From positions 62,001 to 126,000 of the IMG/VR virus record IMGVR_UViG_3300023110_001575: 64,000 bases of DNA; one strand, 5' to 3'. A program made the position numbers and the translations under genes. The notes beneath the pieces are model-generated. The model was not told where the DNA came from and did not search any database. It saw only the letters and a list, made by a program, of their open reading frames with translations. This document shows, one piece after another, positions 1,018 through 44,490 of this stretch (within the stretch, counting starts at the first letter, position 1; each line of letters starts with the position of its first letter). This stretch comes from a virus.

Positions 1018-2541
1018 ATGAGCGATTATAATCAGTCTGCAGATATTGCAGAAAAGCAGTTAAAGAATATCAGCAAGACAATGTGTTATGCAAAATGGAC
1101 ACAGGTTTCTATGCATCTTACAAATGGTAAAACGCATAGTTGCTATCATCCGCCATTGCATGATATGGATGTTGATGCTGTAAAAGCAAATCCTAAAGCC
1201 TTACATAATACTGCACAAAAGAAAGAAGAACGTGCAATGATGCTCAAAGGCGAGCGTCCTGCAGGTTGTGCATATTGCTGGAAGATTGAAGACGTAGGAG
1301 GTCGCAGTGATAGAATATACCGTTCCGGAGAGTATTGGGCACAGAATAGTAGAAGTGATATTATTGATGCACTAGATACAGGTGACGTAGATCCACGTTA
1401 TATGGAAGTTAATTTTAACCAAGCATGTAATTTTTCTTGTATGTATTGTTCTCCACATTTAAGCACAACATGGGAAGAAAAAATCAAAGAACATGGCGAA
1501 TTTAAAATACTAGATGCAGAGGGCAAGGAAACAGGACATAACAATCTAGAGTATTTGCAAGAAAAAGGACTTATGCCTTTGAAAGTACGGCAAAGCGAAA
1601 ATCCTTATCTTGAAGCTTTTTGGAAATGGTGGCCTAGTTTATATAACAAACTAGAAGTATTTCGTATTACAGGCGGCGAGCCGTTAATGGACATCAACAC
1701 ATTTCGTGTACTTGAATATATCTATGAAAATCCAAACACATGGCTTGAATTAAGTATTACAACAAACATGTGTCCTCCTAAAGAAGAACTTATGGATAGA
1801 TTCTTATCTAAAGTAAAAAAACTTGAAGAGATACAAATTTGGGAAGATAAAAATCGTTGGAATCCAGGTAGCGGAAACAACTGGTATGTTAACATGGCAT
1901 TGAAAAACTTTGCGTTGTTTATTTCAGTTGACAGCGTAGGCTCACAAGCAGAATACATACGTGGCGGATTAAAGTGGGATACAATGACACGTAATACTAT
2001 GCGTTTTCTAACAGAAACAAAAAATACAACTGTTACATTTATTAATACTTTTAATGCTTTGTCTGTGCCAAAAGTAAAAGACTATTTAGAATACGTGTTA
2101 AAATTAAGACAGCGTTTTAGTGCAAGTAATCAAGGTGTGCAATATATTCCTATACACGACCCTTACACTAAACACGATGATTATGAAATACATCCTCGTC
2201 AGCGTATTTGGTTTGATATACCTCTAATTAGATATCCTGACTGGCAAACTATTCAAATTTTAACACCAGACTTTGACAAGTATCTTGAAGAAGCAATTGA
2301 CTTTATGAAACAAAATAGCAATGTAAGCGATTTTGCAGGATTCTATGATTTTGAAATTGCAAAACTAGAACGCAATCTTGCTATAATGCGTGAACGTGTT
2401 GACATTAATCAAAACAAAATAGAATTAGATAGAAAAAACTTTGCAAGGTTTTTTGATCAGTATGACGAAAGGAACTTCTTAAAATTTGTAGAAGTGTTTC
2501 CTGAAATGGAAGATTTCTACAAGTTATGTAAAACTCTATAA
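1018..2541 (+). CDS. Radical SAM protein with N-terminal twitch-like module
   Basis: 507 residues. The radical SAM cluster motif C-x3-C-x2-C is at Cys137/141/144 (ACNFSCMYC), followed by TGGEPL near 219-224. Ahead of it is a Cys-rich module, Cys23, Cys42 and CAYC near 84-87 followed by an acidic stretch and GGRSDR, the layout of 'N-twitch' radical SAM proteins, in which a SPASM/twitch-type auxiliary cluster precedes the barrel. Such enzymes use SAM and FeS clusters to modify peptides or other substrates by radical chemistry. It is the first gene after the promoter at 972-999 and its stop overlaps the ATG of the next gene (TAATG). Substrate unknown. The longest of this class in the window. Confidence 0.8.
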   Translation: MSDYNQSADIAEKQLKNISKTMCYAKWTQVSMHLTNGKTHSCYHPPLHDMDVDAVKANPKALHNTAQKKEERAMMLKGERPAGCAYCWKIEDVGGRSDRIYRSGEYWAQNSRSDIIDALDTGDVDPRYMEVNFNQACNFSCMYCSPHLSTTWEEKIKEHGEFKILDAEGKETGHNNLEYLQEKGLMPLKVRQSENPYLEAFWKWWPSLYNKLEVFRITGGEPLMDINTFRVLEYIYENPNTWLELSITTNMCPPKEELMDRFLSKVKKLEEIQIWEDKNRWNPGSGNNWYVNMALKNFALFISVDSVGSQAEYIRGGLKWDTMTRNTMRFLTETKNTTVTFINTFNALSVPKVKDYLEYVLKLRQRFSASNQGVQYIPIHDPYTKHDDYEIHPRQRIWFDIPLIRYPDWQTIQILTPDFDKYLEEAIDFMKQNSNVSDFAGFYDFEIAKLERNLAIMRERVDINQNKIELDRKNFARFFDQYDERNFLKFVEVFPEMEDFYKLCKTL

Positions 2542-5105
2542 TGTATGACATCTTTTTTATTGGTGTAAAAAATGACACTTATGAATATCTAAAAGCAAAT
2601 TTTGTTACAGCAAAATATGCACCTAATTTTTTAACTGCCCAAAGTCAATCCTTAACAGACTTTTTTTGGGTAGTTCCTGATGATGTAAGTATAGTAGAAA
2701 ATTTTACATTTGACTATGAGCCTGATGATTGGAGCAAGAATTACAACCATGTGTTTCTTAATGACACCAAATATGACGGTGTGTGTTTGATTCCTAAAGA
2801 TAATGAAATTACTCTAGACGAAATTGAAAAAAGATGTTATAATAAACAAAAACAAGTAGAATTACAAGTTAGCGTACCAAAACCGTATGATAAGTTTTAT
2901 ATTGAAACATACGATGATTATAAAGACGCACTGGAGTCGTCAAACACTGCAATGTTTTGGGCATTGTCATACAACTTAGAATTAAAGGAAGACTTTGACT
3001 TTGATTTACATTTTGCACATGATAACATATATGACAAAGAAACAAATCATGTGTTCGTTCACGAAGTAAATGGACAAAAGTTATACAATGGAGTAGCACT
3101 GTTGACAAAAGCAAGAATTTTAACAAAAAAAGAAATTGAACATCGTTTTATTGTAAACAGAAAAGAATGGAACATTGTAGCAAGTGGACCTGTAAAATAT
3201 AATAAATTTGTAATTGATAGTTGGGAAGACTATCAATATGCACTTGAAAATTCAAATACAGAAATGTTTTGGGGAACAAGTGTTAATATCGATACAAGCG
3301 GGTTTGCATTTGATACTTATTTTACACATGACAATGAATATGATAGAAAAACAAATCATGCATTTATACATCGTGTAGATGATAATGATTTATACAATGG
3401 TGTATTTTTATTTTCAAAACATGCACCAGTATCGCAAAGAGAAATTGAGCATAGATTTATTGTAAATCACAAACCATGGGATGTAGTGGCAAGTAAACCT
3501 ATACAATATGATAAGTTTCCTATAGACAGTTATCAAGACTATGTAACAGCATTAAATTCAAGCACAACAGAAATGTTTTGGGGTATTCCTAAAGATGTAG
3601 ACGTTGCTGATGATTTTAAATTTGATCTATACTTTGAACATTCTAATACATATGACCGCAGTGTTAATCATGCATTTTTAAATAATGATACATATGACGG
3701 CATTATGCTTTTTAGTAAGCAGTCGCCGGTATCACAACGTGAAGTTGATTATAGATTCTATGCAAACAAAAAAGAATGGGACATTGTAGCAAGTACACCT
3801 AAACCGTTTGATGTGTTTAATATTGATACGTATGAACAATATCTACAAGCCTTAGACAATACAACAACAGAATTATTCTGGTTTAGTACAAATAATATTG
3901 CACTTGATGAAAAGTTTGTTAATAGTTTTTATATCAGTCATCATGAGCAAATTGATAGAAAACAAAATCATAGTTTTGTACATAAAGTAGAAGATAAAGA
4001 CTTGCGTACTGGTGCATATCTATGTAGTATCCATAAACCTGTAAGTAAAAAAGAAATAGAACACAGGCATCTAGTAGAGCGTAAAGAATGGAATAATGTT
4101 GCTAGTGGACCTGCACAATACGATAGATTTAATGTTGAGTCTTGGGAAGATTATTTACGTGCAGTTAAGATGAGTAAAACTGAATTATTTTATGCAGATG
4201 ATCCTAATATTGATACAAGCAAGTTTAGATTTAATATGTATTTTGATCATGCAAACACATATGACAGAAAACAAAACCATGCATTTGTACACAAAGATGG
4301 CTCTGAAACAGGTTACAATGGATTGTTTTTGTTGTCTAAACAATCTCCTATTACCAAAAAAGAAATTGAACACAGATTTGTTGTTAATCACAAGCCTTGG
4401 AATATTATGGCAAGTGAATACAAAATTTATGATGTTGTGTTTATTTCATATCAAGAACCTAATGCAGACGAAAATTATGAACTACTGCTAGAACGTGTAC
4501 CAAATGCAAAACGTGTACATGGAGTAAAAGGTATTCACCAAGCACATATCGAAGCAGCAAAACTTTGCGAAACTGAAATGTTTTGGATTGTTGACGGTGA
4601 CGCACAAATTGTAGATGATTTTAGTTTTGAATATCGTGTTCCACGTTGGGACAGAGACATGGTGCATGTATGGCGTACACAAAACCCAATTAATGATCTA
4701 GTATATGGTTATGGCGGACTAAAACTGTTTCCAAGAATGTTAACTATTAATATGGATACAAGTAAGCCTGACATGACAACAAGTATTACAAACAAATTCA
4801 AGGCTGTCCAACAAATATCAAACTTAACTTGTTTTAATACAGGACCTTTTGAAACATGGAAGTCAGCATTTAGAGAATGCTGTAAACTTTCATCAGGTGT
4901 TATTGACAGACAAAAAGACTTAGAAACACAAGAGCGTTTGGATATTTGGTGTACAAAAGGTGTAGATAAACCATATGGTGAATATGCTATAGCAGGTGCA
5001 AAAGCAGGCGCAGCATATGGTAAAGAAAATGCAACTAATATTGCTGCACTAAAACTTATTAATGACTTTGATTGGCTAAAGGATAAGTTCAATGCAGACA
5101 CATGA
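2541..5105 (+). CDS. Seven-unit repeat protein with C-terminal glycosyltransferase-like unit
   Basis: 854 residues made of about seven units of roughly 100 residues. Five central units start near residue 116 and share Y-D-x-F-x-I-x-x-Y/W-x-x-Y-x-x-A-L, then T-E-M-F-W, then a Y-D-R-x-x-N-H-x-F block, then R-E-I-E-H-R-F-x-V-N-x-K-x-W. The last unit (from about 630) has TEMFWIVDGDAQ with Asp685-Gly-Asp687, a D-x-D-like motif as in GT-A glycosyltransferases. In the middle units this acidic motif is missing although the surrounding TEMFW and D-R-x-x-x-H blocks align, so they look like degenerate copies of the catalytic unit. Glycan binding or scaffolding by the copies is inference. No signal peptide or membrane segment seen. 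Confidence 0.6.
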   Translation: MYDIFFIGVKNDTYEYLKANFVTAKYAPNFLTAQSQSLTDFFWVVPDDVSIVENFTFDYEPDDWSKNYNHVFLNDTKYDGVCLIPKDNEITLDEIEKRCYNKQKQVELQVSVPKPYDKFYIETYDDYKDALESSNTAMFWALSYNLELKEDFDFDLHFAHDNIYDKETNHVFVHEVNGQKLYNGVALLTKARILTKKEIEHRFIVNRKEWNIVASGPVKYNKFVIDSWEDYQYALENSNTEMFWGTSVNIDTSGFAFDTYFTHDNEYDRKTNHAFIHRVDDNDLYNGVFLFSKHAPVSQREIEHRFIVNHKPWDVVASKPIQYDKFPIDSYQDYVTALNSSTTEMFWGIPKDVDVADDFKFDLYFEHSNTYDRSVNHAFLNNDTYDGIMLFSKQSPVSQREVDYRFYANKKEWDIVASTPKPFDVFNIDTYEQYLQALDNTTTELFWFSTNNIALDEKFVNSFYISHHEQIDRKQNHSFVHKVEDKDLRTGAYLCSIHKPVSKKEIEHRHLVERKEWNNVASGPAQYDRFNVESWEDYLRAVKMSKTELFYADDPNIDTSKFRFNMYFDHANTYDRKQNHAFVHKDGSETGYNGLFLLSKQSPITKKEIEHRFVVNHKPWNIMASEYKIYDVVFISYQEPNADENYELLLERVPNAKRVHGVKGIHQAHIEAAKLCETEMFWIVDGDAQIVDDFSFEYRVPRWDRDMVHVWRTQNPINDLVYGYGGLKLFPRMLTINMDTSKPDMTTSITNKFKAVQQISNLTCFNTGPFETWKSAFRECCKLSSGVIDRQKDLETQERLDIWCTKGVDKPYGEYAIAGAKAGAAYGKENATNIAALKLINDFDWLKDKFNADT

Positions 5106-6000
5106 GTTACTTGATAGATTTGAATTGATGTATCCTAGAGATACTAGATTAAGTGATTTACGTAGAGCATATATTGACAAAGATATGAGTAGTATCTTTA
5201 GACTACTTCCTACTGTTATACGTGGAAGTACAGATGATTTGCGTAAAGTAATGATGGAAAATAATTTACACAGTTTGTTTAGACTTGCAGAAGATGAAGA
5301 ATTGCGTAAGTTATTATTAGAAAACAATACATATAAACTTTGGCCAGTATTGAAAAGATTTAAAGATACAAGATTTATTGATGCGTTTAAAAATCTACAA
5401 ATAAACAATATTGAATACGATACAGATTGTTTTAGTAGAGGACAACTTGAAAGTAAACTTTGGTTAGTACAAGAATTACAAAGACAAAAAATTGATTTAG
5501 GCACAGTATTTCTTTGTGCAGGATGGTACGCTACACTTGCTACAATGTTATTTGAAAGTAACATTAAGTTGGATAAAGTTAGATCTTTTGACGTTGATCC
5601 TACTTGCGCAAACATTGCTGAAGTTTTCAATAAGCCTTGGGTAAAAGAAGAATGGCAGTTTAAAGCCTGTACACAAGATATTATGGAAATACAATGGGAT
5701 GGGCATAGTTATCCTGTAAATAGAAGTGATGGTAGTGTTTGTATGCTTTATGATACACCAGATACAATTATTAATACTAGTTGCGAACATATAGAAAACT
5801 TTGCAAAATGGTATGATTCAATACCAGAAGGTAAATTAGTTGTACTACAAAGCAACAACTATTATGAAATTGAAGAACATGTAAATTGTGTAGGAAGTAT
5901 TGAAGAGTTTGCAGTAAAGGCATCTATGAATAATATTTTATATGCAGGTGAATTTGATTTGCCCAAGTATACGAGGTTTATGTTAATTGGATTTAAGTAA
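5092..6000 (+). CDS. Methyltransferase-like protein with helical N-terminal region
   Basis: 302 residues. Residues 1-110 are helical with repeated L-R-K-x-(M/L)-(M/L)-x-E-N-N segments. The second half resembles a class I SAM methyltransferase: a hydrophobic strand and loop IDLGTVFLCAGWYATLA, then an acidic strand end VRSFDVDP, then a strand/turn around MEIQWDG. The glycine-rich SAM loop is poor (CAGWYA), so binding of SAM or activity is uncertain; another Rossmann-type role is possible. It overlaps the end of the repeat protein by 14 bases and the next small gene by 14 bases. Confidence 0.45.
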   Translation: MQTHELLDRFELMYPRDTRLSDLRRAYIDKDMSSIFRLLPTVIRGSTDDLRKVMMENNLHSLFRLAEDEELRKLLLENNTYKLWPVLKRFKDTRFIDAFKNLQINNIEYDTDCFSRGQLESKLWLVQELQRQKIDLGTVFLCAGWYATLATMLFESNIKLDKVRSFDVDPTCANIAEVFNKPWVKEEWQFKACTQDIMEIQWDGHSYPVNRSDGSVCMLYDTPDTIINTSCEHIENFAKWYDSIPEGKLVVLQSNNYYEIEEHVNCVGSIEEFAVKASMNNILYAGEFDLPKYTRFMLIGFK

Positions 6001-6214
6001 GTTTACAACTAGACAGTTGCAATTAGAATGTGCAAGAGCACTGAGCACAATGCAAGCAACTAATAACAACATATGGCAGTTTAACAAAGAAGCACACCAT
6101 AACAGTTGGAATTGGTATTGTGCTGTCATACACTGGTATATTGAACAGTATGGTGATTTACCTAGTAAAGTCGGCCCTGGCAAGGATGTGGAGTTAGTTT
6201 ACGATAATGTATAA
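5987..6214 (+). CDS. Small protein of unknown function
   Basis: 75 residues, no recognised family. It starts at TTG 5987 inside the end of the upstream gene, with GAGG about 11 bases upstream, and its stop overlaps the next radical SAM start at 6207. The sequence is Trp/Tyr/His-rich in the middle (NSWNWYCAVIHWYIEQYG) and ends in a Gly/Val-rich acidic tail. Being small and placed directly before a radical SAM gene, it could be a partner, a carrier or even a substrate, but nothing in it resembles a known RiPP leader. An internal ATG near 6050 is an alternative start. Confidence 0.5.
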   Translation: MDLSKFTTRQLQLECARALSTMQATNNNIWQFNKEAHHNSWNWYCAVIHWYIEQYGDLPSKVGPGKDVELVYDNV

Positions 6215-7274
6215 TTATGAAGATATTAAAACTATTCATTTAGAAGTTACACAAAACTGTCAAGCCAGTTGTCCAATGTGTGATCGAAACATGAATGGTG
6301 AAGGAATAAATCCTCATATTAACCTTGATGAATTGTACTATGAAGATTGCGTAAAGATATTTGATGCTTCCTTTATAAAACAATTGGATACTATGTACAT
6401 GTGTGGTAATTTGGGCGATCCTATTGTTGCACAAGATACACTTGAAATATTCAAATATTTTAGAAAGCATAACCCTAATATGTGGTTAAGCATGAATACA
6501 AACGGAGGAGCAAAAAATGAAGAATGGTGGAGACAACTGGCTGAAGTTTTTGGAAGGATGGGTGCCGTTATATTTAGTGTTGACGGTTTGCGTGACACTA
6601 ATCATCTATATCGCCAAGGTGTTGTATGGGATAATGTAGAACGCAATATGAGAGCCTTTATAGACGCAGGTGGCAGGGCACGTTGGGACTATTTGATATT
6701 TGAACATAACCAGCATCAAGTAGAAGAAGCAGAAGCACTTGCTAATGAATGGGGTTGCGAAAAGTTTATGAAGAAAAAGACTGGACGCTTTATTACACAA
6801 GATTCAAAAAAGAAAGAATCGCATCAAGCAGTTGATCGTAAAGGTAAAGAAACTACTGAACTAAAAAAACCTGATGAAAAGTACCAAAACAAAGCTTTAA
6901 CTAAACAAGATAAAATTATAGAAAAATACGGAAGTATGGATGCATATTACAATGCTGTTCCTGTAATATGTAAAGTAAAAAAAGAAAACAGTCTGTTTAT
7001 AACAGCAGAAGGACTTGCGTTGCCCTGCTGCTGGACTGCTGGACGTATGTACAAATGGTGGCATAAAGATCCTAAAATAGAACAAATATGGGATTTCATT
7101 GAAGATAAAACAAAATTAGATGCACGTAATGGATTAGAAAAAGTTTTTAAAACAGGTATTTTTGATGCTATACAAAACAGTTGGAATAAGCCGAGTTGTT
7201 TTGCAGGTAAATTAAAAGTTTGTGCTATGAAGTGCGGTGCGGAGTTTGATCCATTTGCGGAGCAATTTAAATGA
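6207..7274 (+). CDS. Radical SAM protein with C-terminal SPASM/twitch-like module
   Basis: 355 residues. The cluster motif is Cys18/22/25 (NCQASCPMC) right at the N-terminus, with GNLGDP in place of the usual GGEP and SVDGL further on. The C-terminal third carries Cys near 254, then the ALPCCW pair near 274-275, and Cys in LKVCAMKCG near 339-343, the pattern of an auxiliary FeS cluster. A Lys/Glu-rich insert (about residues 190-240) is unusual. Three relatives with the same architecture lie at 10313, 12614 and 33506. It overlaps both neighbours by a few bases. Substrate unknown. Confidence 0.8.
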   Translation: MYNYEDIKTIHLEVTQNCQASCPMCDRNMNGEGINPHINLDELYYEDCVKIFDASFIKQLDTMYMCGNLGDPIVAQDTLEIFKYFRKHNPNMWLSMNTNGGAKNEEWWRQLAEVFGRMGAVIFSVDGLRDTNHLYRQGVVWDNVERNMRAFIDAGGRARWDYLIFEHNQHQVEEAEALANEWGCEKFMKKKTGRFITQDSKKKESHQAVDRKGKETTELKKPDEKYQNKALTKQDKIIEKYGSMDAYYNAVPVICKVKKENSLFITAEGLALPCCWTAGRMYKWWHKDPKIEQIWDFIEDKTKLDARNGLEKVFKTGIFDAIQNSWNKPSCFAGKLKVCAMKCGAEFDPFAEQFK

Positions 7275-7996
7275 TATTATTTAATGGATGCAGTTTTACA
7301 TACGGCGATGAATTAATAGATGCTGAAAATACATGTTTTGCTGCACTTGCAGGAAAAAAATTAAATCAAGATTTTAAAAATTTAGGAACACTCGGCGGCA
7401 GTAATCATAGGATTGTTAGAACTACATTTGCAAATTTAGATGAAAATATTAAAGCAGCAGTTATACAATGGACATCTCCTACAAGATTTGAACATTTTGT
7501 ACAAGATAGTTTAGAGACAAACGATGGATATAGAAAAGTTACTTTACAAAAATTAGGACCTATAGGTCACCATCATGATAGGACTATATGGAGAATGTTT
7601 AATGCAAACCAGTATAGTAAAACAAATCTTGCACTTAAAAAATATGCAGTGCAAGTTAGAACTTATAGAGCAAACTGTATAGAATTTTTATATCAAGTAC
7701 ATCAAATTCAAACAGCCTTAAGATTAGCAGATATACCTTATTTTATGGTAAACGGAATAAAAGAAATACATCAAGATATATTTCCAGATAATTTATCTCA
7801 TTTAAGAAATAGTTGTCCTGTATATAATAAAATTGACTGGAGTGACAAAGTTTGGTTGTTAGATCCAAAAACTGATAGTATAGAAGACTGGACTAAACGT
7901 AATAACTATGCTATAGGTAGCGGCGAGCATCCACTTGAGGAAGCACATGATGCTTTTTCTGATATAATACTACATAGATTGAAAGATAAAATATGA
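7271..7996 (+). CDS. SGNH hydrolase-like protein
   Basis: 241 residues. ILFNGCSFTYGDE at 2-14 is a block I motif with Ser8 as likely nucleophile, NLGTLGGSNHRI is block II-like, and GEHPLEEAHDAF near the C-terminus supplies the late His. The start overlaps the upstream stop by four bases (ATGA). It sits between a radical SAM gene and a 2OG-oxygenase-like gene, suggesting that it processes the same substrate; whether it is an esterase or deacetylase cannot be told. Confidence 0.6.
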   Translation: MILFNGCSFTYGDELIDAENTCFAALAGKKLNQDFKNLGTLGGSNHRIVRTTFANLDENIKAAVIQWTSPTRFEHFVQDSLETNDGYRKVTLQKLGPIGHHHDRTIWRMFNANQYSKTNLALKKYAVQVRTYRANCIEFLYQVHQIQTALRLADIPYFMVNGIKEIHQDIFPDNLSHLRNSCPVYNKIDWSDKVWLLDPKTDSIEDWTKRNNYAIGSGEHPLEEAHDAFSDIILHRLKDKI

Positions 7997-14814: not shown

Positions 14815-14817
14815 TAT
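14789..14817 (+). promoter_or_regulatory. Sigma70-type promoter
   Basis: TTGACA at 14789-14794, a 17-base spacer and TAGTAT at 14812-14817. It lies over the end of the upstream radical SAM gene and ahead of the TTG-started gene at 14841, which has GGAG at about 14830. The -10 is imperfect; the position before one of the few intergenic gaps supports it. Confidence 0.5.
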
Positions 14818-14840
14818 AGTACTAATAATGGAGAACTATA

Positions 14841-25585: not shown

Positions 25586-26121
25586 ATTGGTATCACAGAA
25601 AACTTAAATTACAATACGATCCTAAGATTTTTAATGATATAGTAGAGTATGCTAAATCAAAAGATTGGAAACAAGGCTATGATCAAAACGGACTACAGTG
25701 GAACGTAGAAGAACTTCCGCTTGACGTTAAAGACTTTCCTATACTTGAAGAAATTTACGAAGGGTTTAACGCAGAATTTAAACGTCCGAGTTTCTTCCTA
25801 AGCAGTGTAAAGCCAGGCGGCCTAGTAAATCATATAGATCATCGCAAGTGGGGAAATTTTGGCATACCTCTTGTAGGAGACTTTAGCAAGACTCCTCAGT
25901 ATTACTATGATCAATTTAATCATCCTGTAGAAAAATTTGTAATGGATGCACCTACAATATTTTATACAAGGATGTTACATGCAGTGCCACGCAAACTTGA
26001 TGATACGGAACCACGTTGGATTCTAATGATGGATTTGTTTGATTGGATTGATAATTTGTTTAACAAAATAGATGACAACACAATATGGAAAAATACAGAA
26101 CATTTTAAATATAATGGATAA
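25582..26121 (+). CDS. Putative 2OG-Fe(II) oxygenase
   Basis: 179 residues. PGGLVNHIDHRKWGNFGIP gives His-x-Asp, and TRMLHAVPRKLDDTEPRWILMMD gives the distal His and an Arg that may hold 2-oxoglutarate. AAAGGATA lies before the ATG. The gene ends in an overlap with the next radical SAM gene. It follows another oxygenase of the same fold, with only modest similarity. Confidence 0.55.
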   Translation: MNWYHRKLKLQYDPKIFNDIVEYAKSKDWKQGYDQNGLQWNVEELPLDVKDFPILEEIYEGFNAEFKRPSFFLSSVKPGGLVNHIDHRKWGNFGIPLVGDFSKTPQYYYDQFNHPVEKFVMDAPTIFYTRMLHAVPRKLDDTEPRWILMMDLFDWIDNLFNKIDDNTIWKNTEHFKYNG

Positions 26122-27778: not shown

Positions 27779-28524
27779 CCCTTAACAAAAAAATGTTTAT
27801 TGATTTAGACGAAATTATACAAGTTGAAAAGTGTCCAGATATAACAGATATGATTGTGGATAGTGTGAATCATATCAGACACAACTGTAATATTAGAACT
27901 TTTGATCTCAAAGGAAATCAAATTAAAGATGCTTGGTATGCAAAACAGATATTAGACTGTGACCTTAAAGATAATAAAAAAATATTACAAGCAGAACTAA
28001 AACATGGTGTTAGAAGTCCTTACTATGTATTAGCATTAAGAGAAGGTGGTCATGATAGTTATGTCTACGATTCGATAAACACAGATGATAATGTGTGGAA
28101 GAAGATAAAGTGGAAAGAAGATTTAAAAGACACTTTTGCCCCTCTAATAGAATATATAGAATCTTTACCTTTAGATAGAATAGGTCATTGTAGTTTTTTT
28201 ATAAACAGACCAGACATTATTCCTTGGTATCATGTCGATAGTGGCACAGACGACGAACTAGAAACGTGGAAACCGAAACCACACAGAGAAGAGTTTATAT
28301 GGATAAACTTTAGCTCGGACAAAACATTTTACGTCTTAGACGAAAAGGTACCTGTTCCAATAACATCTAGAAGTGCTTTTTTTAACACAAACAACTATCA
28401 TGGATCGCACGAAAGCACACCGAGGTATTCTTTCAGTTTACGTATTGAATGCGTTTTTTCGGAAAAATTAAGACAACAAATGGGAATTGCTCATTTAGAA
28501 AGGTACTATTACGAAAATGTATAA
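27766..28524 (+). CDS. Putative 2OG-Fe(II) oxygenase
   Basis: 252 residues. IPWYHVDSGTDDE holds His-x-Asp, then EEFIWINFSSDKTFYVLD, and FNTNNYHGSHESTPRYSFSLRIE with the distal His and Arg. The strand order fits the double-stranded beta-helix of Asp/Asn-hydroxylase-like enzymes. The ATG has AAGGAG upstream inside the radical SAM gene. Substrate unknown. Confidence 0.58.
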   Translation: MEKLTLNKKMFIDLDEIIQVEKCPDITDMIVDSVNHIRHNCNIRTFDLKGNQIKDAWYAKQILDCDLKDNKKILQAELKHGVRSPYYVLALREGGHDSYVYDSINTDDNVWKKIKWKEDLKDTFAPLIEYIESLPLDRIGHCSFFINRPDIIPWYHVDSGTDDELETWKPKPHREEFIWINFSSDKTFYVLDEKVPVPITSRSAFFNTNNYHGSHESTPRYSFSLRIECVFSEKLRQQMGIAHLERYYYENV

Positions 28525-28541
28525 CAATAACGAGATATTTT

Positions 28542-29540
28542 ATGTCGACTAAATTATTTGATTCTTTTGTGCATGATTTTTTAGAATGGAGCAAAACAAG
28601 TGTTGAACCAAAAAATGCTTGTCCATTTGCAAAAACTTCACGTGTCAAAAATCAAATACAATTTTTAGATGGCAGTTCTAATTTTGATGTTATTAAAGAT
28701 TGGGATTCTTCTAAAGAAATGGGTGTGGTGTATCTTGGACAAGATGTAGACAAAGAAATAATAATGGAAAAAATATATAAAGCAAGGGCTAACGATCCTA
28801 GTAAAGTTTTTTTCTACACTGCACCTATTAAAGGAGTAAAAGATAATAATCCCTTTCAGTGTATAATAATTCATAATAAAAAAGAATTTATGTTGAAACA
28901 GCGTATTTTATACGAAAAAGGAGACTATTATAAAAATTATCCAGGAGAAAAATTAGACAAATTTATAAGTGTCTATCCAATAACAAAAACAACAAAGCAA
29001 AAAATTGGAACTGCAAAGCAAGGTAAAGTATTCCAACATTATTTTAAAGGACAAGGTAGTGTTTTAGATATTGGAGGCGCAGCAGGTAATTTATTATACT
29101 ATGTACCTATAGCACAATACACATGTATAGATGTAAATGAAAAAGCAATCAAGTTAGGTAAAGAAATTTATCCTGAGCATAATTTTATACATTGGAATAG
29201 GTACAACAGATACTATAATAAAACAGGATATGCTCTTTTGGAGTTTCCAAAAGTCAGTCCACATGATTTTACATTTGTTAACAGTGTTTTTACCAGTTGT
29301 GATCACGACACTATAATGCACATAATGTCAAATATTCTTAAAATAACAAATAAAAAAGTTGTTTTTAGTGTATTTGATTATAACAACAAAGAATTAAAAA
29401 ACAAGTTAGGAAATGCTGTAAATTATCATGACGTATTTAAATTAAAAAATGTTTTAGAATTTGAATTTAAAATAGATTGTAAAGTTTATAATCCTTGTAG
29501 TATAGATAATAATTTTGCAGTGTTTAGTATAGAAAGGTAA
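28542..29540 (+). CDS. CPFA-domain protein fused to a SAM methyltransferase domain
   Basis: 332 residues from ATG 28542. Residues 1-150 match the standalone protein at 18727 (FDSFVHDFLEW, CPFAKTSRVKNQIQFLDG, GVVYLG, NPFQCIII). Residues 165-332 are a class I methyltransferase domain: GSVLDIGGAAGNLLYY as the SAM loop, YTCIDVNEKAIKLG as the acidic strand end. It therefore shows a fusion of a domain that is separate elsewhere in the same cluster, suggesting the two activities act on one substrate. An upstream in-frame extension to 28449 overlaps the previous gene and is unlikely. Confidence 0.6.
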   Translation: MSTKLFDSFVHDFLEWSKTSVEPKNACPFAKTSRVKNQIQFLDGSSNFDVIKDWDSSKEMGVVYLGQDVDKEIIMEKIYKARANDPSKVFFYTAPIKGVKDNNPFQCIIIHNKKEFMLKQRILYEKGDYYKNYPGEKLDKFISVYPITKTTKQKIGTAKQGKVFQHYFKGQGSVLDIGGAAGNLLYYVPIAQYTCIDVNEKAIKLGKEIYPEHNFIHWNRYNRYYNKTGYALLEFPKVSPHDFTFVNSVFTSCDHDTIMHIMSNILKITNKKVVFSVFDYNNKELKNKLGNAVNYHDVFKLKNVLEFEFKIDCKVYNPCSIDNNFAVFSIER

Positions 29541-29542
29541 AC

Positions 29543-30460
29543 ATGTATAACAATCCTCTTAATAAATTAATTTGGGATAAAGTGCAAGAAATGTTTTATT
29601 GGAACATTGCACCAGAATCTCCAATATGCCAATTGCCGTTTACACAAGAATTTATTGACGCATGTGAACAAGAATTTTCAATGACTGTTCGTGATATGCA
29701 TTATCCTATTTCCTTAGGAAAAGTTGATCAATGGTTTGGTAAACGTATGCAAGATTTTGTAAAAGAAATTGACGCACAATATCAGCACAATTATTTTGTC
29801 GGAGAAAATGGAACTAGCACAACTGGTGTAGTAGGAACTATATATGATGTTGACGAAAAACCTATTACAAACAAATGGAATATTAGAGGACAAGCACTTG
29901 TAGACAGATTACAGGCTATGCAAAAAGAAAATCCTAATTTAACAATTTTAGATATGGGTTGCGGAGTTAACGAATACAAAAAACATTTGAATAATGTTAC
30001 TGGAGTTGATCCGTATAGAGAAGAAGCAGATATTTTGTCCAAGCAAAGTGATTTTATTACGCAAGGTAAAACTTGGGATATAATCATTTGCTTTGGCCCA
30101 CAGAATTGGTATACTTACGATGAACAATTTAGAAACTTCAAAAAACTCAAAGAATGTTTGGCACCGGGCGGGTTACTTTTGTGGTCGCACGTACATCACT
30201 ATTATAAAGTATTTCAGCCCGATCATCTTTATGCGCACACTTGGATACACGGAGACATGGATCATGCTCAACGTAATAGTGCTTTTTATTTTTATGATCG
30301 CGATTGGAAATATACTTGGTATTTCAATTGGACCGAACATGCCGTAGAAACACTTGCTAAACATGTAGGACTGTCTATTGATAAAGTAGATTATGATCAT
30401 TGTAATTTATATAGACCGCCTATGTATAGAATATTTGTGGAGATGACACATGAAAAATAG
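29543..30460 (+). CDS. SAM-dependent methyltransferase
   Basis: 305 residues. The Rossmann domain starts near 133: LTILDMGCGVNEYKKHL (SAM loop), VTGVDPYREEADIL (acidic strand end), WDIIICFGPQNWYTYDE, and LAPGGLLLWSHVHHYY, a canonical class I methyltransferase order. The first 130 residues are unassigned. AAAGG precedes the ATG two bases after the upstream stop, and its end overlaps the next gene by 11 bases. Substrate unknown. Confidence 0.68.
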   Translation: MYNNPLNKLIWDKVQEMFYWNIAPESPICQLPFTQEFIDACEQEFSMTVRDMHYPISLGKVDQWFGKRMQDFVKEIDAQYQHNYFVGENGTSTTGVVGTIYDVDEKPITNKWNIRGQALVDRLQAMQKENPNLTILDMGCGVNEYKKHLNNVTGVDPYREEADILSKQSDFITQGKTWDIIICFGPQNWYTYDEQFRNFKKLKECLAPGGLLLWSHVHHYYKVFQPDHLYAHTWIHGDMDHAQRNSAFYFYDRDWKYTWYFNWTEHAVETLAKHVGLSIDKVDYDHCNLYRPPMYRIFVEMTHEK

Positions 30461-31019
30461 ATGGGACGTAACAGTAGCAGCGTCTAATTATCATTGGGAT
30501 CCTAACGCAAACGATAGCAATACTATTAGAATAATAAGTAATGTGTTTGATGAATGGAATGATGAAATCGAACGTGCTATAGAATTACAAAAACCTGTTA
30601 TTAGTGACGGAACAATCGAAAAGCACATATCTGCCGGAACGCACATGTATAACGGAGTTATAGTTGATACTACAGAATTTCCAATACTCGGTAGTATCGG
30701 TAAAAAACTAGGATTTGAAGAATATAATACAAGTATTCAAACACAAACTACTGGAATGACAACTCCATTGCATATAGATTCATCTTCTGGAGATAAAGAA
30801 AGAGTTATTGTTATGCTTCAAGACTGGTACTGGGGACAAATACTTCAATTTGGTAATATAGTATTACATAATTGGAAAGCAGGGGATGTATTATATTTTA
30901 GTATCAATGGTACACCGCATAGTACAGCAAATTTAAGTCCACATAGTAGAACTATAGCAAAAATTACAGGACGCACAACAGATGCATTTGAAAAATTATT
31001 AAAGGGAGAGTCTCAGTGA
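30450..31019 (+). CDS. Putative 2OG-Fe(II)/Asp-hydroxylase-like oxygenase
   Basis: 189 residues. TTPLHIDSSSGDKERVIVML carries His-x-Asp, QILQFGNIVLHNWKAGDVLYF follows, and GTPHSTANLSPHSRTIAKITG carries the distal His and an Arg. It is a tandem paralogue of the next gene: both start MKNRWDVTV and end alike (IAKITG), the next having an insert. The first 27 bases after the first base are identical in both genes. Confidence 0.62.
   Translation: MKNRWDVTVAASNYHWDPNANDSNTIRIISNVFDEWNDEIERAIELQKPVISDGTIEKHISAGTHMYNGVIVDTTEFPILGSIGKKLGFEEYNTSIQTQTTGMTTPLHIDSSSGDKERVIVMLQDWYWGQILQFGNIVLHNWKAGDVLYFSINGTPHSTANLSPHSRTIAKITGRTTDAFEKLLKGESQ
30451..30477 (+). repeat. 27-base direct repeat, copy 1
   Basis: Perfect 27-base repeat covering the first nine codons of the 30450 gene; copy 2 is at 31017-31043 at the start of its paralogue. 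The rest of the two genes has diverged clearly. Confidence 0.85.
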
Positions 31020-31678
31020 AAAATAGATGGGACGTAACAGTAGAACAAAGTAATTATGATTTTAATCCGTTTAGAGAAAGTGATCATGGCAAAAGCTTTA
31101 GAACAGTAGGAAATATAGAACCTACATGGAAAGATGAAATACCTATTGCAAATGCTAATCAATACGACTTTTATTGGCCTTCGCCTGTGTCTCCAGAAGG
31201 CGACAGTTTTAATTATGACTATGAAGAATTGCTTTGCAAGGATTGGGGTATACCTTTAGACTTTGTTGTATACAGACAGTGGACAACAACGGATGAAACA
31301 CCAATACTAAACAGTCTAGCCGAACAAATCGGTTTAGAAAATGCACAAACAAATATTCAAACTCAACATACAGGAATGATGCTACATTTACATATAGATA
31401 GTTTAACTGGTTTACGAAAAGAACGTACAGATCAAACAAGTAGTAGAGCAACAGACGATGAATGGGGTAGATGCTTTGTAATGCTTGATGATTGGGCACC
31501 TGGACATATTATTCAATTTGGTAATACCTACGTACCACCTTGGCATGCAGGAGATGTAATTTGGTTTGATTGGGCAAACATACCACATAGCACTGCTAAC
31601 ACTGGACCATGGCCTAGAAACATTGCAAAAATTACAGGTAAAGTTACGCAAAGGTATAAAGAGTTTGTTGGAATCTAA
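31016..31678 (+). CDS. Putative 2OG-Fe(II)/Asp-hydroxylase-like oxygenase, tandem paralogue
   Basis: 220 residues from GTG 31016 with GGGAGAG upstream, overlapping the previous stop by four bases. LHLHIDSLTG carries His-x-Asp, HIIQFGNTYVPPWHAGDVIWFDW follows, and NIPHSTANTGPWPRNIAKITG carries the distal His and Arg. Compared with its neighbour it has an extra stretch of about 30 residues near FYWPSPVSPEGD. A gene duplication followed by divergence is evident. Confidence 0.62.
   Translation: MKNRWDVTVEQSNYDFNPFRESDHGKSFRTVGNIEPTWKDEIPIANANQYDFYWPSPVSPEGDSFNYDYEELLCKDWGIPLDFVVYRQWTTTDETPILNSLAEQIGLENAQTNIQTQHTGMMLHLHIDSLTGLRKERTDQTSSRATDDEWGRCFVMLDDWAPGHIIQFGNTYVPPWHAGDVIWFDWANIPHSTANTGPWPRNIAKITGKVTQRYKEFVGI
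31017..31043 (+). repeat. 27-base direct repeat, copy 2
   Basis: Identical to 30451-30477, at the start of the tandem paralogue. Confidence 0.85.
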
Positions 31679-32774
31679 ACCTAGTTGTTGGTTTGCTTAT
31701 AAAGGTTTATCTGTAGATTCTACAGGCAATCTAAATCCTTGCGGCCATAGCACTTATAAGTTTGGAAAATTTACTGACTACAACTCTTTGAATGTTGACA
31801 GAACAAATGCTATAAAAGATTTTGATCAACATGTTCCGAAAGGGTGCATTTCTTGTACAAATAGAGAAGTGAGAAACGAACAAAGTAGACGTTTATATCA
31901 TTACGATTGGTTCAGTCAACAGGTAAATTTTGATATAGAATTTTTAGATATTGATATAGGTAATCTATGCAATCTCAAATGTAGAATGTGTAATCCTGGA
32001 CAGTCGTCTAGTTGGATAAAAGATGGACACCTTAAAGATAAAGTTGATTTTACGTTAGACGATTTTGATAATAATAAGATTCTTGATAATATAAATGGCG
32101 ATATGATAAAATTTTTATCTAGTTTAGATTCTTTAAGGTATATTATTATAAAAGGTGGAGAACCTTTTATGCATCCAAGATTCTTTGAGTTTATAGAATG
32201 TATTCCAAACAAGCATAACGTAAAATTACAGATTATTACCAATGGCACACATAAATTGACTAAAGATGAAAAGAGATTGTTTGCTAAATTTGATAAACTG
32301 AATATTTTCTTTTCAGTAGAATCTGATGGAGAGATGTATCAATACATTAGAGGCGGAAAATTTACATTTGAAGAATCATTAGATAATTGGAAATCTTACA
32401 AAACGTTTCCTAATGCAAATGAAATTGGATGGATTTATACTGCAAACATTTATGGTATCTATAATTTTGATAGTTTACAGAGTAAAATAGAAAACTCTAT
32501 TGATTTTGGACATCAAGTTCTTGATCCTATGTATTTGAATCCGTTGATTACACCTTTACATATAAAACAAAAAATATTAGAAACTACAAACTATTCTCAT
32601 TGGAAAAAATATTTTGCAACTAGTGCAACAGATTTGTTTGGTATAAGCATAGACAAACAATACAAACTTTTATGCAATTTGTATTCTTACACAACAACAT
32701 TAGATAATATTAGAAGACAACACCTTTTAGATGTAGAGCCCAGGTTTGAGTGGATTTATGAATACAACAAATAA
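31665..32774 (+). CDS. Radical SAM protein with N-terminal twitch-like module
   Basis: About 369 residues from TTG 31665 (TTG 31668 also possible), with AAAGG about a dozen bases upstream; the open frame extends further up but there overlaps the previous gene. N-terminal module: SCWFAYKGLS, LNPCGH, CISCTNREVRNEQSRR. Cluster motif Cys102/106/109 (LCNLKCRMC), then KGGEPFMHP and SVESDGE. Followed after 19 bases by a QueC-like gene with its own AGGAGAAGG. Confidence 0.77.
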   Translation: MLESKPSCWFAYKGLSVDSTGNLNPCGHSTYKFGKFTDYNSLNVDRTNAIKDFDQHVPKGCISCTNREVRNEQSRRLYHYDWFSQQVNFDIEFLDIDIGNLCNLKCRMCNPGQSSSWIKDGHLKDKVDFTLDDFDNNKILDNINGDMIKFLSSLDSLRYIIIKGGEPFMHPRFFEFIECIPNKHNVKLQIITNGTHKLTKDEKRLFAKFDKLNIFFSVESDGEMYQYIRGGKFTFEESLDNWKSYKTFPNANEIGWIYTANIYGIYNFDSLQSKIENSIDFGHQVLDPMYLNPLITPLHIKQKILETTNYSHWKKYFATSATDLFGISIDKQYKLLCNLYSYTTTLDNIRRQHLLDVEPRFEWIYEYNK

Positions 32775-32793
32775 TTAGTGTATAGGAGAAGGT

Positions 32794-33537
32794 ATGATTG
32801 AAAAAGGCGTTACAATAGATTTACACGGAACCAAAAGAATTGGTATGAAATTGTCAGGTGGACCTGACAGTGCAATGATTCTTTATATGATTTGTAAAAA
32901 AATAACTGATGAGAATATAGATATTGAATATATTCAACCAATTACTGCTACAGCAGATGTTAAACCATACAATATAAAATTTGCCAGAAGAGTAATTGAA
33001 TGGATGCGAAATAGATATCCTAATATTGAAATCAAAGATACACATTGTGCTGTATGCAGATATGAAGAATATAATTCTCGACAAGAAGAATTAGTAAGGG
33101 ATTTAATTTTAAACAGAGATATTGATATTACATTTGCAGGAATTACAGCAAATCCTCCCGATGAAAAAGGCAGGAATTTTTGGCCTTGCAATCCTAAATA
33201 CACTAGAGCAATTGAATTAGACTTTGACGAGCATCCTGAAGACATTTCAAATGCAGATTGGAATACAAGAGCAGTTGAAAGAGACGAACCTGATGTCGAA
33301 GTTTATTGGTCTACTTGGAGAGGCAAGGACGAAAAAGTTCCAATGGTAAGACCTTTTATTAATCATGATAAAAGGAAAGTAGCAGAATTATATCATCACT
33401 ACGATATTATGGAATTGTTTGATATAACAAGATCTTGTGAAAACAGAGATGGTCCTGCGCTAAACGATTTCGAAGATCATTGCGAAACAGAATGTTGGTG
33501 GTGCTATGAACGTAGATGGGCCTTTGGGCGAGTTTAA
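32794..33537 (+). CDS. QueC-like PP-loop ATPase (7-cyano-7-deazaguanine synthase candidate)
   Basis: 247 residues. The PP-loop KLSGGPDSAMILY is at 19-31. The C-terminus has Cys215 (TRSC), then Cys230, Cys234 and Cys237 followed by ERRWAF; QueC ends the same way, with four zinc-binding Cys and a C-x2-R-x2-AF tail. QueC uses ATP and ammonia to turn 7-carboxy-7-deazaguanine into preQ0. An additional CAVC pair lies near 87-90. The Cys spacing differs from bacterial QueC and the gene sits among radical SAM genes far from queE/folE, so another PP-loop amidation or thiolation enzyme is possible. AGGAG is well placed before the ATG. Confidence 0.55.
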   Translation: MIEKGVTIDLHGTKRIGMKLSGGPDSAMILYMICKKITDENIDIEYIQPITATADVKPYNIKFARRVIEWMRNRYPNIEIKDTHCAVCRYEEYNSRQEELVRDLILNRDIDITFAGITANPPDEKGRNFWPCNPKYTRAIELDFDEHPEDISNADWNTRAVERDEPDVEVYWSTWRGKDEKVPMVRPFINHDKRKVAELYHHYDIMELFDITRSCENRDGPALNDFEDHCETECWWCYERRWAFGRV

Positions 33538-34441
33538 GTATACAGGCTGGCACATTGAACTAACAAACAGATGTCCACTAGCATGTCCTGCATGTATTAG
33601 AACTATGCACGGGCCTGGTTCTAAGTCAGACATTGATACTAAATTACTTCTCAACTTTTTGCCTAATCCTGAAAAATATGATTACATATTTTTTCAAGGT
33701 AATTTGGGAGATCCTATATATCATCCTGATTTCCACAAAATTTCAGAACATTTTTTCCCAGCAAATGAATTACAAGTTACAACAAATGGAATGCAAACAA
33801 AAGAGTTTTGGCAAAGAGTGCTAGAAACATGGCCCGAGTCTAGTATTGTTGAACTTAGTATAGACGGCCTACAAGACACTAATAGCATATACAGAGTTAA
33901 CAGTAATTGGAACAAAATACAAGAACTTTTTGAACTTATAGCAACTACTAAACGCAAATGTCAGATTATATGGAAGTATATTGTTTTTGAACACAATCAT
34001 CATCAAGTTGAAGAAGCAATAGCCTTAAGTAAAAAAATAGGCATGAATGAATTTAAAATTAAAAAAAGTTGGACTATACATGATGACATGTCCAATAATG
34101 GCCAAGTTAAAGACTATTATAATCCAGAATGGTTTGATTATGTAAAAAGAGAAACACTTGACGAATTAGCACCTTTCTGTTATACTGGAGACATGCATTA
34201 TATAAATTCGCAAGGTAACTATTATCCTTGTTGTTGGATAGATAACGACATAAGTTCTGTAGGACACATATCAGAAGGTTTAGATAGTATTAAAGATAAA
34301 TTTTTAAACTTTAGTAACTTATTAATTTGGAGTAAATGTCCTAAAGTATGCAGAAAAATGTGTTGTAAAATTAGTGATAACGATAAAGAAATGATTACAC
34401 CTAACAACGTTGTTGATAGAAAAATAATAGTAAATGATTGA
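33506..34441 (+). CDS. Radical SAM protein with C-terminal SPASM/twitch-like module
   Basis: 311 residues. Cluster motif Cys23/27/30 (RCPLACPAC), then FQGNLGDPIYHPD (GNLGDP as in the 6207 protein), LSIDGLQDTNSIYR, and a C-terminal module FCYTGDMHYIN...YYPCCW with CPKVCRKMCC near the end. It overlaps the QueC-like gene by 32 bases and the permease gene by eight. Last radical SAM gene of the plus-strand block. Confidence 0.78.
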   Translation: MNVDGPLGEFKYTGWHIELTNRCPLACPACIRTMHGPGSKSDIDTKLLLNFLPNPEKYDYIFFQGNLGDPIYHPDFHKISEHFFPANELQVTTNGMQTKEFWQRVLETWPESSIVELSIDGLQDTNSIYRVNSNWNKIQELFELIATTKRKCQIIWKYIVFEHNHHQVEEAIALSKKIGMNEFKIKKSWTIHDDMSNNGQVKDYYNPEWFDYVKRETLDELAPFCYTGDMHYINSQGNYYPCCWIDNDISSVGHISEGLDSIKDKFLNFSNLLIWSKCPKVCRKMCCKISDNDKEMITPNNVVDRKIIVND

Positions 34442-35723: not shown

Positions 35724-35731
35724 GAGAAAAA

Positions 35732-44422: not shown

Positions 44423-44452
44423 GTCATTCCTCTTATATCAGTGCCTATATTT

Positions 44453-44480: not shown

Positions 44481-44490
44481 CCATTAAAAA

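Follow-up and report, generated by a model that had tools for sequence, protein, structure and literature searches.

An ordered radical SAM gene core with swappable cassettes behind the fibre genes of a T4-like phage, and its counterparts in Bdellovibrionota

Introduction

Phage genomes rich in radical S-adenosylmethionine (rSAM) genes have been noted since 2010, when the Campylobacter phages CP220 and CPt10 were reported to carry 11 and 12 such genes together with amidinotransferase modules (PMC2853527). Twelve were found in the 183-kb T4-like genome TARA_ERS488813_N000010 (PMC5332604), how common rSAM genes are on viral contigs from the Tasman Sea has been described (PMC7150976), and in the host-recognition cluster of pelagimyophages rSAM cassettes accompany hypervariable genes by the tail fibres, glycosyltransferases (mostly GT8) and a UDP-glucose dehydrogenase (PMC7029224). 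Here we analyse, in a large marine phage that has not been cultivated, an rSAM array that occupies positions 1018–34441 of a 64,000-nucleotide window, namely positions 62001–126000 of the virus record IMGVR_UViG_3300023110_001575 (126,358 bp in total).

A preliminary description of the window, made from its letters alone, knew of no described system of this kind. That was too strong, as rSAM-rich T4-like phages have been published, without a mechanism in the relevant passages (PMC2853527, PMC5332604, PMC7029224). The array is better seen as a known but unexplained kind of locus, the rSAM-rich phage cassette, plus a new and testable core. This core consists of six genes, encoding a glycosyltransferase with a GT-A domain, a 302-residue methyltransferase-like protein (M302), a 75-residue helical protein (P75), a C-type rSAM enzyme, an N-type rSAM enzyme and an rSAM enzyme with a Cys-rich tail (R21422), and is the new finding over the earlier reports. 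Genes are named below by their start in the window; N-type and C-type denote a twitch-like Cys module before or after the rSAM barrel, and L- and G-numbers denote fetched loci and the genomes or records that hold them.

Results and discussion

An ordered core with exchangeable cassettes

Gene 11212, the core N-type, has 266 confirmed relatives on viral contigs, and the best 80 of these (84–100% identical) provide the core-order counts that follow, with 10-kb flanks, presence judged at set identity limits per gene, and many loci ending early. Among the 80 loci, gene 2541 (GT-A) was present in 51, 5092 (M302) in 55, P75 in 65, 6207 (C-type) in 75 and 21422 in 46. The order GT-A, M302, P75, C, N was identical in all 45 loci that held these five genes, and P75, C, N and R21422 followed one another on a single strand in all 35 that held these four. 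The core order thus recurs in other viral contigs, a check that the preliminary description had itself proposed.

Between the fixed genes the DNA is variable: from start to start, 1.0–9.2 kb separate C from N and 1.4–10.5 kb separate N from R21422, and the cassettes so accommodated hold differing rSAM, 2-oxoglutarate (2OG) oxygenase-like, PP-loop and pyridoxal phosphate (PLP) enzyme genes. Among the records found, all 42 with contigs of at least 60 kb encode a protein above the curated cut-off (170 bits) of the N_Twi_rSAM model NF033640, with 5 to 25 matches each at E <= 0.001, C-type matches counted. A search reaching close relatives only found the amidinotransferase at 17 viral loci; judged by best hits, the 13606 and 20262 families accompany it at all 17, those of 15880 and 17063 at 16, and that of 12614 at 14. 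The accessory part of the array is therefore itself modular.

Counterparts in Bdellovibrionota and other bacteria

A genome scan yielded 49 bacterial loci, many from Bdellovibrionota-type metagenome-assembled genomes (MAGs; phylum names are those given by the genome records). Searched at E <= 1e-20, R21422 had orthologues in 17 of 290 Bdellovibrionota genomes, which also served as the control that the query works, and in none of 398 genomes from the phylum of a Reyranella genome or 194 from that of a Verrucomicrobiota MAG. Of these genomes, five (G043, G045, G046, G047, G050) had already come up in the genome scan. The 17 loci, 5 to 20 kb in length, contain the core N-type in 15 cases, the core C-type in 12, GT-A in nine and M302 in eight, with at least one of the latter two in 13. 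Because gene order and strand vary there, this co-location is not merely that of a whole inherited operon. P75 appeared only in two phage-like MAG contigs in a six-frame search of loci L155–L202 and L217–L234, and was not found among open reading frames (ORFs) of at least 60 residues in L239–L246.

N_Twi_rSAM exceeds its cut-off in 30 of 114 Bdellovibrionota genomes. In locus L155 the order is an N-type gene, genes resembling beta-hydroxylases (by eye), a second N-type gene, amidinotransferase (49% identical), PLP enzyme (44%), a third N-type gene, a C-type rSAM gene whose Cys module forms an ORF of its own, and a fourth N-type gene (50%); genes that look like rpsU, dnaG and rpoD (by eye) lie farther along. 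In some bacterial loci the neighbours, read by eye, include glycosyltransferase, epimerase, sugar-transferase, CapD-like and O-acyltransferase-like genes. In one Zetaproteobacteria MAG, a single 839-residue ORF (L181, 8765–11281) joins ABC_tran, Wzt_C, SPASM and rSAM domains, that is, an O-antigen exporter ATPase fused to an N-twitch rSAM enzyme, with RmlC/RmlD-type, TylF and WbsX genes nearby; this fusion was seen once, in an assembly.

In an N-core tree with outgroups, 23 phage rows formed one clade (support 100/100) among 17 bacterial rows, with the bacterial locus L243 as sister (99/92). A tree that included a second phage group (group B, below) again united the 9 + 11 phage rows (100/99) as a clade nested among 17 bacterial rows, with L243 as its sister (97/92). 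The tree program issued a long-branch warning for these trees. Since the phage rows nest as one clade within the bacterial ones, the most economical reading is that the phage line received the gene in a single transfer. The R21422 tree, built without an outgroup, merely separated phage and bacterial groups. The Bdellovibrionota link is a lead on the origin of the phage lineage, and perhaps on its host too.

Several further observations were made in these bacterial genomes. Positions 18288–20989 of L166, from a Bdellovibrionales MAG, mirror window positions 37002–39582, with a 2OG enzyme (58% identical), an ATP-grasp-like protein (30%) and the gene after it (33%). A pair of membrane-like proteins (about 160 and 300 residues) recurs alongside Bdellovibrionota rSAM arrays in L220, L225 and L229. 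Genome G043 bears its own N_Twi_rSAM array on a Bdellovibrionota chromosome (contig C1, 745–775 kb; L218, L219), and has 33 NF033640 matches at E <= 0.001, weaker ones counted.

Fibre genes and signs of glycan chemistry

Upstream of the array, the record holds baseplate genes, a 4806-residue gene and fibre-like genes, then gp115, two GT8-like genes, gp192 and a GT-A gene, beyond which a stretch encodes GT-B-like enzymes (by eye), an epimerase and a UDP-glucose dehydrogenase as well as one aminotransferase-like and a second amidinotransferase-like protein. The fibre proteins, of about 300 residues, are encoded at record positions 43046–45223. The run from fibre genes through gp115, two GT8 genes and gp192 to GT-A precedes the array in seven of eight maps of this phage group; in one of the maps an unmatched ORF takes the place of gp192, and the eighth contig stops there. 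Thus hypervariable genes, glycosyltransferases and adjoining tail fibres, the marks of the pelagimyophage host-recognition cluster, are all found together here.

The same run occurs on a bacterial chromosome. In L243 (7060–18378), core N, GT-A and R21422 genes are followed by a fibre homologue, gp115, two GT8 genes, a 163-residue ORF, GT-A and two N-type genes, the part from the fibre homologue onward being in the phage order and the flanks being housekeeping genes, rnhB/trmD/pheST-like by eye. The 308-residue fibre homologue matches the best phage fibre, encoded directly ahead of gp115 in the phages, at 1e-24 (phmmer). A homologue (29% identical) in Pseudomonas phage PA5oct is labelled ESI-MS/MS in its record and sits in a matching run of a giant gene, a gene of about 200 residues and a gp10-like tail pin. 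The L243 order and the PA5oct homologue together make the adjacent fibre proteins the best acceptor candidate. Phage-like trimeric fibres are employed in predation by B. bacteriovorus, in a report whose main text does not contain the words glycosyl, post-translational or radical SAM (PMC10769870). The fibre family was found in one of 290 Bdellovibrionota genomes, which rules it out as a general partner of the array in that phylum.

As to glycan chemistry, the GT8 profile matches glycogenin (4e-4), and epimerase and UDP-glucose dehydrogenase genes were identified upstream, as listed above. Gene 2541 encodes a predicted GT-A-like fold with a DxD motif; all 46 PDB matches of its AlphaFold2 (AF2) model at E <= 0.001 are annotated glycosyltransferases, at low TM-scores (0.31–0.47 by query length). 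Ahead of this domain, window positions 2541–4415 hold several degenerate repeats, apparently decayed copies of part of it. The M302 profile had no match in the PDB, and P75 was dropped as a known fold after a PDB fold search gave no match with E below 6.

Positions 10–80 of the N-type module profile match the C-terminal twitch of BtrN (6.6e-8). BtrN is a 2-deoxy-scyllo-inosamine dehydrogenase. This homology bears out the earlier view of N- and C-types as mirrored designs, two arrangements of one idea.

Composition and integrity of the array

The motif C-x3-C-x2-C is present in 16 of the 33 block ORFs of at least 100 residues, every one on the + strand, against a mean of 0.1 and a maximum of 2 ORFs when the block proteins were shuffled (500 rounds). 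One of the 16 (32794–33537) matches QueC, leaving 15 rSAM loci. The motif count and profile searches agree with the 15 loci on one strand of 33 kb first described, and profiles and Cys-module position with their division into eight N-twitch, four C-twitch, one Cys-rich-tail and two cobalamin-type (Table 1). All eight N-type loci exceed the NF033640 cut-off (175.6 to 416.2 bits), as do 10 proteins in the whole record, the other rSAM loci of the block scoring lower than the cut-off. Residues C8, C76 and C79 (20262 numbering) are invariant across 10 N-type sequences, and C26 is absent from 15880. A B12-binding domain precedes the barrel in 22572 and 26072, as in cobalamin-dependent rSAM enzymes. 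The ORF pair 10313/10923, a C-type gene split from its Cys module, recurs gap-free in two records at 88% DNA identity.

Other parts of the preliminary description fared variously. C- and N-types do alternate from 6207 to 13627, and the near-continuous overlap of genes is real, with 30 of 33 array junctions overlapping or touching and a widest gap of 26 bp; the + strand run comprises 70 genes, all with gaps <= 60 bp. The amidinotransferase stands, through its match to PDB 1bwd (1e-25). Eight 2OG genes were claimed: seven within the block were recognized by eye and one lies outside it (37014), which alone has profile support, and a Pfam search of the eight matched none. The array also extends past the limits first given, as the record has 17 PF04055 matches, among them record positions 48.8–50.2 and 54.5–56.4 kb, both upstream of the window, and window positions 51819–53054 (- strand); gene 1018 (24.7 bits) is not in this set. 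A chimeric assembly near 37.6 kb, raised as a concern, is ruled out, window positions 36600–38800 being unbroken in all five other records (three at 100% identity, two at 93%). Maturase equivalogs for ribosomally synthesized and post-translationally modified peptides (RiPPs) in NCBIfam reached at best 21–53 bits, against cut-offs of 180–380, among 10 of the 15 rSAM loci (those other than 21422, 22572, 26072, 31566 and 33506).

Near the end of the + strand run, at 34434–36499, the phage carries what looks like a transporter pair, made up of a permease of the TctA family and a protein that, by eye, is probably a periplasmic binding protein.

Table 1. Promoters and genes in and around the array, in window coordinates
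Feature	Position	Strand	Evidence
SGNH-hydrolase-like, 307 aa	75–998	+	seed of SGNH profile group; motif by eye; no Pfam match
sigma-70-type promoter, perfect, TTGACA-16-TATAAT	972–999	+	19 nt ahead of gene 1018; consensus match only
N-twitch rSAM	1018–2541	+	NF033640 301.9 bits
Core glycosyltransferase, GT-A domain 4416–5102	2541–5105	+	AF2 pLDDT 92.6; invariant DxD
Core M302, methyltransferase-like by eye	5092–6000	+	52% mean column identity, 27 sequences; no Pfam match
Core P75, 75-aa helical protein	5987–6214	+	29-row alignment, 30 invariant columns; AF2 pLDDT 87.6
Core C-twitch rSAM	6207–7274	+	PF04055 36.4 bits; Cys module downstream of barrel
SGNH/DUF6071-like	7271–7996	+	PF19547 8e-9
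2OG-oxygenase-like	7993–8991	+	HxD...H by eye; no Pfam match
N-twitch rSAM	8988–10313	+	NF033640 233.6 bits
C-type rSAM, barrel part	10313–10978	+	PF04055 44.5 bits
Detached Cys module of 10313 gene, other frame	10923–11237	+	sequence; possible own ATG at 10959
Core N-twitch rSAM	11212–12636	+	NF033640 416.4 bits (416.2 in a second search)
C-twitch rSAM	12614–13630	+	PF04055 24.4 bits, under cut-off; Cys module
N-twitch rSAM	13606–14814	+	NF033640 252.7 bits
Amidinotransferase	14841–15887	+	1bwd inosamine-phosphate amidinotransferase (StrB1-type, nearest in PDB); GATM/StrB1 sequence family; HC-T motif by eye
N-twitch rSAM without second Cys position of module	15880–17100	+	NF033640 226.7 bits; alignment
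PLP enzyme, fold-type-I-like	17063–18019	+	profile to aminotransferase 3if2 9e-4; invariant Lys
2OG-oxygenase-like	17997–18770	+	motif by eye; no Pfam match
Conserved phage protein	18727–19209	+	phrog_28122 4.5e-7
N-twitch rSAM	19202–20275	+	NF033640 228.8 bits
N-twitch rSAM	20262–21425	+	NF033640 404 bits; 50% identical relative on Bdellovibrionia chromosome
sigma-70-type promoter, perfect	21388–21416	+	directly ahead of gene 21422
Core rSAM with Cys-rich tail (R21422)	21422–22600	+	PF04055 59.4 bits
Cobalamin-binding rSAM	22572–24425	+	PF02310 45.4, PF04055 36.4 bits
Redoxin	24418–25005	+	PF08534 49.6 bits
2OG-oxygenase-like	24941–25585	+	motif by eye; no Pfam match
2OG-oxygenase-like	25582–26121	+	motif by eye; no Pfam match
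Cobalamin-binding rSAM	26072–27778	+	PF04055 51.7, PF02310 46.9 bits
2OG-oxygenase-like	27766–28524	+	motif by eye; no Pfam match
18727-like domain, then methyltransferase-like domain	28539–29540	+	18727 profile group; weak methyltransferase match 0.0028, under cut-off
Methyltransferase	29543–30460	+	PF13489 30.1 bits
2OG-oxygenase-like	30450–31019	+	motif by eye; no Pfam match
2OG-oxygenase-like, resembles 30450 gene	31016–31678	+	shared profile group with 30450; no Pfam match
N-twitch rSAM	31566–32774	+	NF033640 175.6 bits
QueC-like PP-loop protein, not rSAM	32794–33537	+	PF06508 22.2 bits (cut-off 22)
C-twitch rSAM	33506–34441	+	PF04055 25.8 bits, under cut-off 29.5; Cys module
2OG oxygenase, beta-hydroxylase type, just past block	37014–37655	+	profile to 7v4f 3e-22; invariant HxD and H
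N-twitch rSAM, outside array	51819–53054	-	NF033640 277.3 bits

Phage lineage and a second phage group

The major capsid protein of a near-identical 256-kb record (G001) is T4-type and nearest to those of Sinorhizobium phage Phosso and Vibrio phage 2.275.O (70%), then of RaK2-like jumbo phages (65%). PF04055 matches number 4 in Phosso, 0 in 2.275.O, 1 in GAP32, 11 in CP220 and 6 in Vibrio phage K566; given the counts for the first three, the array is no general trait of the jumbo relatives. Compared by tblastn with 50,697 phage records, 11212 matched two (21% identity), 6207 matched four (22–23%), and P75 and 21422 matched none. The accessory N-type 20262 matched 41, all below 60% identity (20–28% in the 40 listed) and nearly all of them Vibrio phages, so N-type relatives are not rare in phages.

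Group B comprises three fragments (G033, G037 and G040; loci L122–L130 and L148–L151) that carry the amidinotransferase set and 19–25 NF033640 matches per record. No gp23 (PF07068) match was obtained in the three fragments, and G033 and G040 have many non-array genes in common with the window (up to 77% identical). R21422 is present in all three records (76–79%) and the core N-type in G033 and G040 (66%), the two genes lying at opposite ends of the array; the stretch fetched for G037 begins inside the array. Thus N and R21422 form the pair retained most widely, the transferase part being less than universal.

Promoters

Both perfect sigma-70-type promoters in Table 1 stand ahead of an array gene. 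Matches at 11 or 12 of the 12 positions recur ahead of 21422 in 18 of 29 relatives (0.2 in shuffles), and elsewhere ahead of 11212 in 2 of 57, 6207 in 0 of 38, P75 in 0 of 43, 5092 in 1 of 27, 2541 in 1 of 3 and 20262 in 0 of 9. This conserved promoter suggests early transcription of R21422, whose message may be leaderless, as about 5 nt separate the end of the -10 box from the ATG. The T4-type TATAAATA is rare (three in the record, two of them near a start), so that late promoters were uninformative.

A modular glycan-building pathway and its alternatives

We tentatively favour, as a possibility held with less than even confidence, the explanation that a modular pathway for glycan building has its tailoring part in this array, directly behind the fibre genes, with the phage's own fibre proteins as the likeliest acceptor. 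Its reactions, acceptor and benefit are what we infer. The glycosyltransferases (two GT8-like, GT-A and, by eye, GT-B-like) would assemble sugars on the acceptor from units provided by the UDP-glucose dehydrogenase, NAD-epimerase and aminotransferase-like enzymes. N- and C-twitch rSAM enzymes would then attack unactivated sugar C–H bonds, using the twitch as BtrN does, for dehydrogenation, epimerization or similar; cobalamin rSAM enzymes would C-methylate, 2OG enzymes hydroxylate, and the PLP enzyme and amidinotransferase together install a guanidine. The fixed core may lay down an invariant part that the cassettes between core genes diversify. With the neighbouring fibre proteins of about 300 residues as acceptor, the product would be a variable coat on the host-recognition fibres, the main alternative acceptor being a lipid-linked or host-surface glycan, and the phage might gain by changed adsorption or escape from receptor loss. 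The ordered core, clustered as it also is on bacterial chromosomes, points to undescribed chemistry whose probable role is the decoration of surface sugars or fibres.

The multi-step tailoring system of the preliminary description is strengthened by the ordered core with its swappable cassettes, the clustering of core members on Bdellovibrionota chromosomes and the non-chimeric junction. Of the substrates that it named, a virion protein, a glycan and a peptide, fold and context lean towards glycan chemistry. The turnover of accessory genes, to which the 17 amidinotransferase loci and the differing maps attest, and the rSAM-rich T4-like phages already in print both weaken the proposal.

A number of results weigh against the fibre-glycan explanation. 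With the fibre family in a single Bdellovibrionota genome, the hint that fibres are the acceptor rests on one bacterial locus, and no annotated glycosyltransferase lies beside the PA5oct fibre homologue within 18.8 kb, most of whose genes are labelled 'hypothetical'. The GT-A and GT-B-like profiles had no match among PDB sequences, and the TM-scores of the 2541 fold matches, given above, are low. In group B the fetched stretches showed no GT-A, M302, P75, GT8 or fibre profile match beside the array, so the rSAM part can exist without transferase or fibre neighbours. Early transcription of R21422 would weaken a purely late, virion-only role and fit host modification better. Finally, a general enrichment of glycan genes around cellular N-type rSAM genes was not borne out for GT2. 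The comparison used 38 of the 49 bacterial loci, nine having been set aside in advance (phage-like MAG contigs, one duplicate, archaeal loci and loci that were too distant) and two more lacking an N match. It began from 184 near and 156 far proteins, of which the 110 nearest and 110 farthest were listed and, after removal of the four longest near and last four far before alignment, 106 of each scanned; GT2 occurred in 2 near and 2 far proteins and methyltransferases about equally, and only TylF, GDSL, epimerase and Asp_Arg_Hydrox, at three near each and at most one far, leaned towards enrichment.

The early-type promoter is one reason to consider that the pathway instead remodels the surface glycan of the infected host (O-chain or capsule), for example to exclude competing phages, leaving the virion undecorated. 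The authors of the pelagimyophage study interpret the glycosyltransferases of its host-recognition cluster in this way, in the passages concerned (PMC7029224), and the Wzt fusion in one bacterium points in the same direction. Yet the block is tied to fibre genes in this phage group and once in a bacterium, and no glycan exporter or flippase turned up among the genes scanned against Pfam, which were not all genes; on balance we regard host-surface remodelling as somewhat unlikely, though a close rival to the fibre explanation. Modification of a peptide or protein, RiPP-like or polytheonamide-like, with P75 or a virion protein as substrate and enzymes acting on amino acids, seems a good deal less likely. 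Polytheonamide biosynthesis does use the same enzyme classes (rSAM, cobalamin rSAM, 2OG and methyltransferase), P75 combines small size with high conservation, the relatives of the 37014 family include beta-hydroxylases and a proline hydroxylase, and the group B array has no matched transferases alongside. P75 is however conserved along its whole length, without a variable core, and did not turn up in the bacterial clusters, and GT-A belongs to the phage core and to nine of 17 bacterial loci. With no gap above 26 bp, the array could house no further precursor, which rules out a classical RiPP with its precursor hidden inside the array; one could lie elsewhere in the genome.

That the amidinotransferase is nearest StrB1 in the PDB, that a TctA gene stands at the block end and that a Paenibacillus N-type rSAM gene adjoins carrier-protein and ketosynthase-like genes (by eye) would suit a free small molecule or cofactor, such as a guanidino-amino-sugar or amino-acid derivative, made and put to use in the course of infection and perhaps moved by the TctA-like transporter. 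Against the fixed linkage to fibre genes and glycosyltransferases in this phage group, we think such a product distinctly improbable. Genes of 2OG, rSAM, QueC-like and aminotransferase type are also known from phage DNA-modification clusters, but hypermodification of DNA bases would be very hard to reconcile with an array in a run with baseplate and fibre genes, or with core members on bacterial chromosomes, in L227 and L231 beside glycosyltransferase, epimerase and O-acyltransferase-like genes (by eye). Equally remote is an rSAM gene nursery, in which horizontally gained genes are retained by chance and share no pathway: the strong variability of accessory genes among relatives would be expected of it, but not the strict core order, a core N-type 84–100% identical in the best 80 of 266 relatives, or the clustering of core members in another lineage, the Bdellovibrionota.

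A wider version of the fibre-glycan explanation, which we hold to be unlikely as a whole, is that a hitherto unknown rSAM glycan or glyco-fibre chemistry is common to predatory-type Bdellovibrionota and a widespread lineage of uncultivated jumbo T4-like phages. An ancestral core would have passed once from these bacteria to the phages, come to lie behind the fibre genes and been run combinatorially, diversifying the chemistry of attack-surface fibres in the way that O-antigen loci diversify cell surfaces. Regardless of acceptor, the ordered core and its bacterial counterpart define a minimal set (GT-A, M302, and C-type, N-type and Cys-tail rSAM) open to testing outside the phage, and NF033640 gains a first pathway context. 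If a variable fibre or surface glycan is indeed made, it would mean a new layer of phage–host recognition and enzymes for late-stage sugar chemistry.

Comparison with known systems

In the open-licence PMC literature, no paper was found for the name or accession of NF033640, and no paper that came up for Bdellovibrio or Bdellovibrionota with radical SAM bore a title on such arrays. CP220 and CPt10 resemble our phage in being T4-like, with 11 rSAM matches counted in CP220, and in a module where the C-type profile is the best match for three genes and which also encodes a same-family amidinotransferase (1e-54) and two proteins annotated as nucleotide-diphospho-sugar transferases; one of their rSAM proteins is best matched by the broad R21422 profile, NF033640 not being among the profiles scored. 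Unlike the window, their 49-kb stretch gave no GT-A, M302 or P75 profile match. TARA_ERS488813_N000010 differs in having been discussed in terms of Fe–S metabolism, with no pathway in the passage concerned (PMC5332604). The pelagimyophage cluster shares its setting with the array, whereas its authors propose O-chain modification and the relevant passages hold no ordered rSAM core or bacterial counterpart (PMC7029224); the lineage differs as well, since the G001 capsid falls nearest Phosso and 2.275.O. With BtrN the N-type enzymes share a homologous twitch module, which follows the barrel in BtrN and precedes it in the N-type enzymes. The Bdellovibrionota core clusters depart from the phage arrangement in their variable order and strands, in the lack of any P75 found and in having a fibre homologue in one genome only, and they share with it, in one locus, orthologues of N (53–62% identical), C (40–48%), R21422 (57–68%), GT-A and M302.

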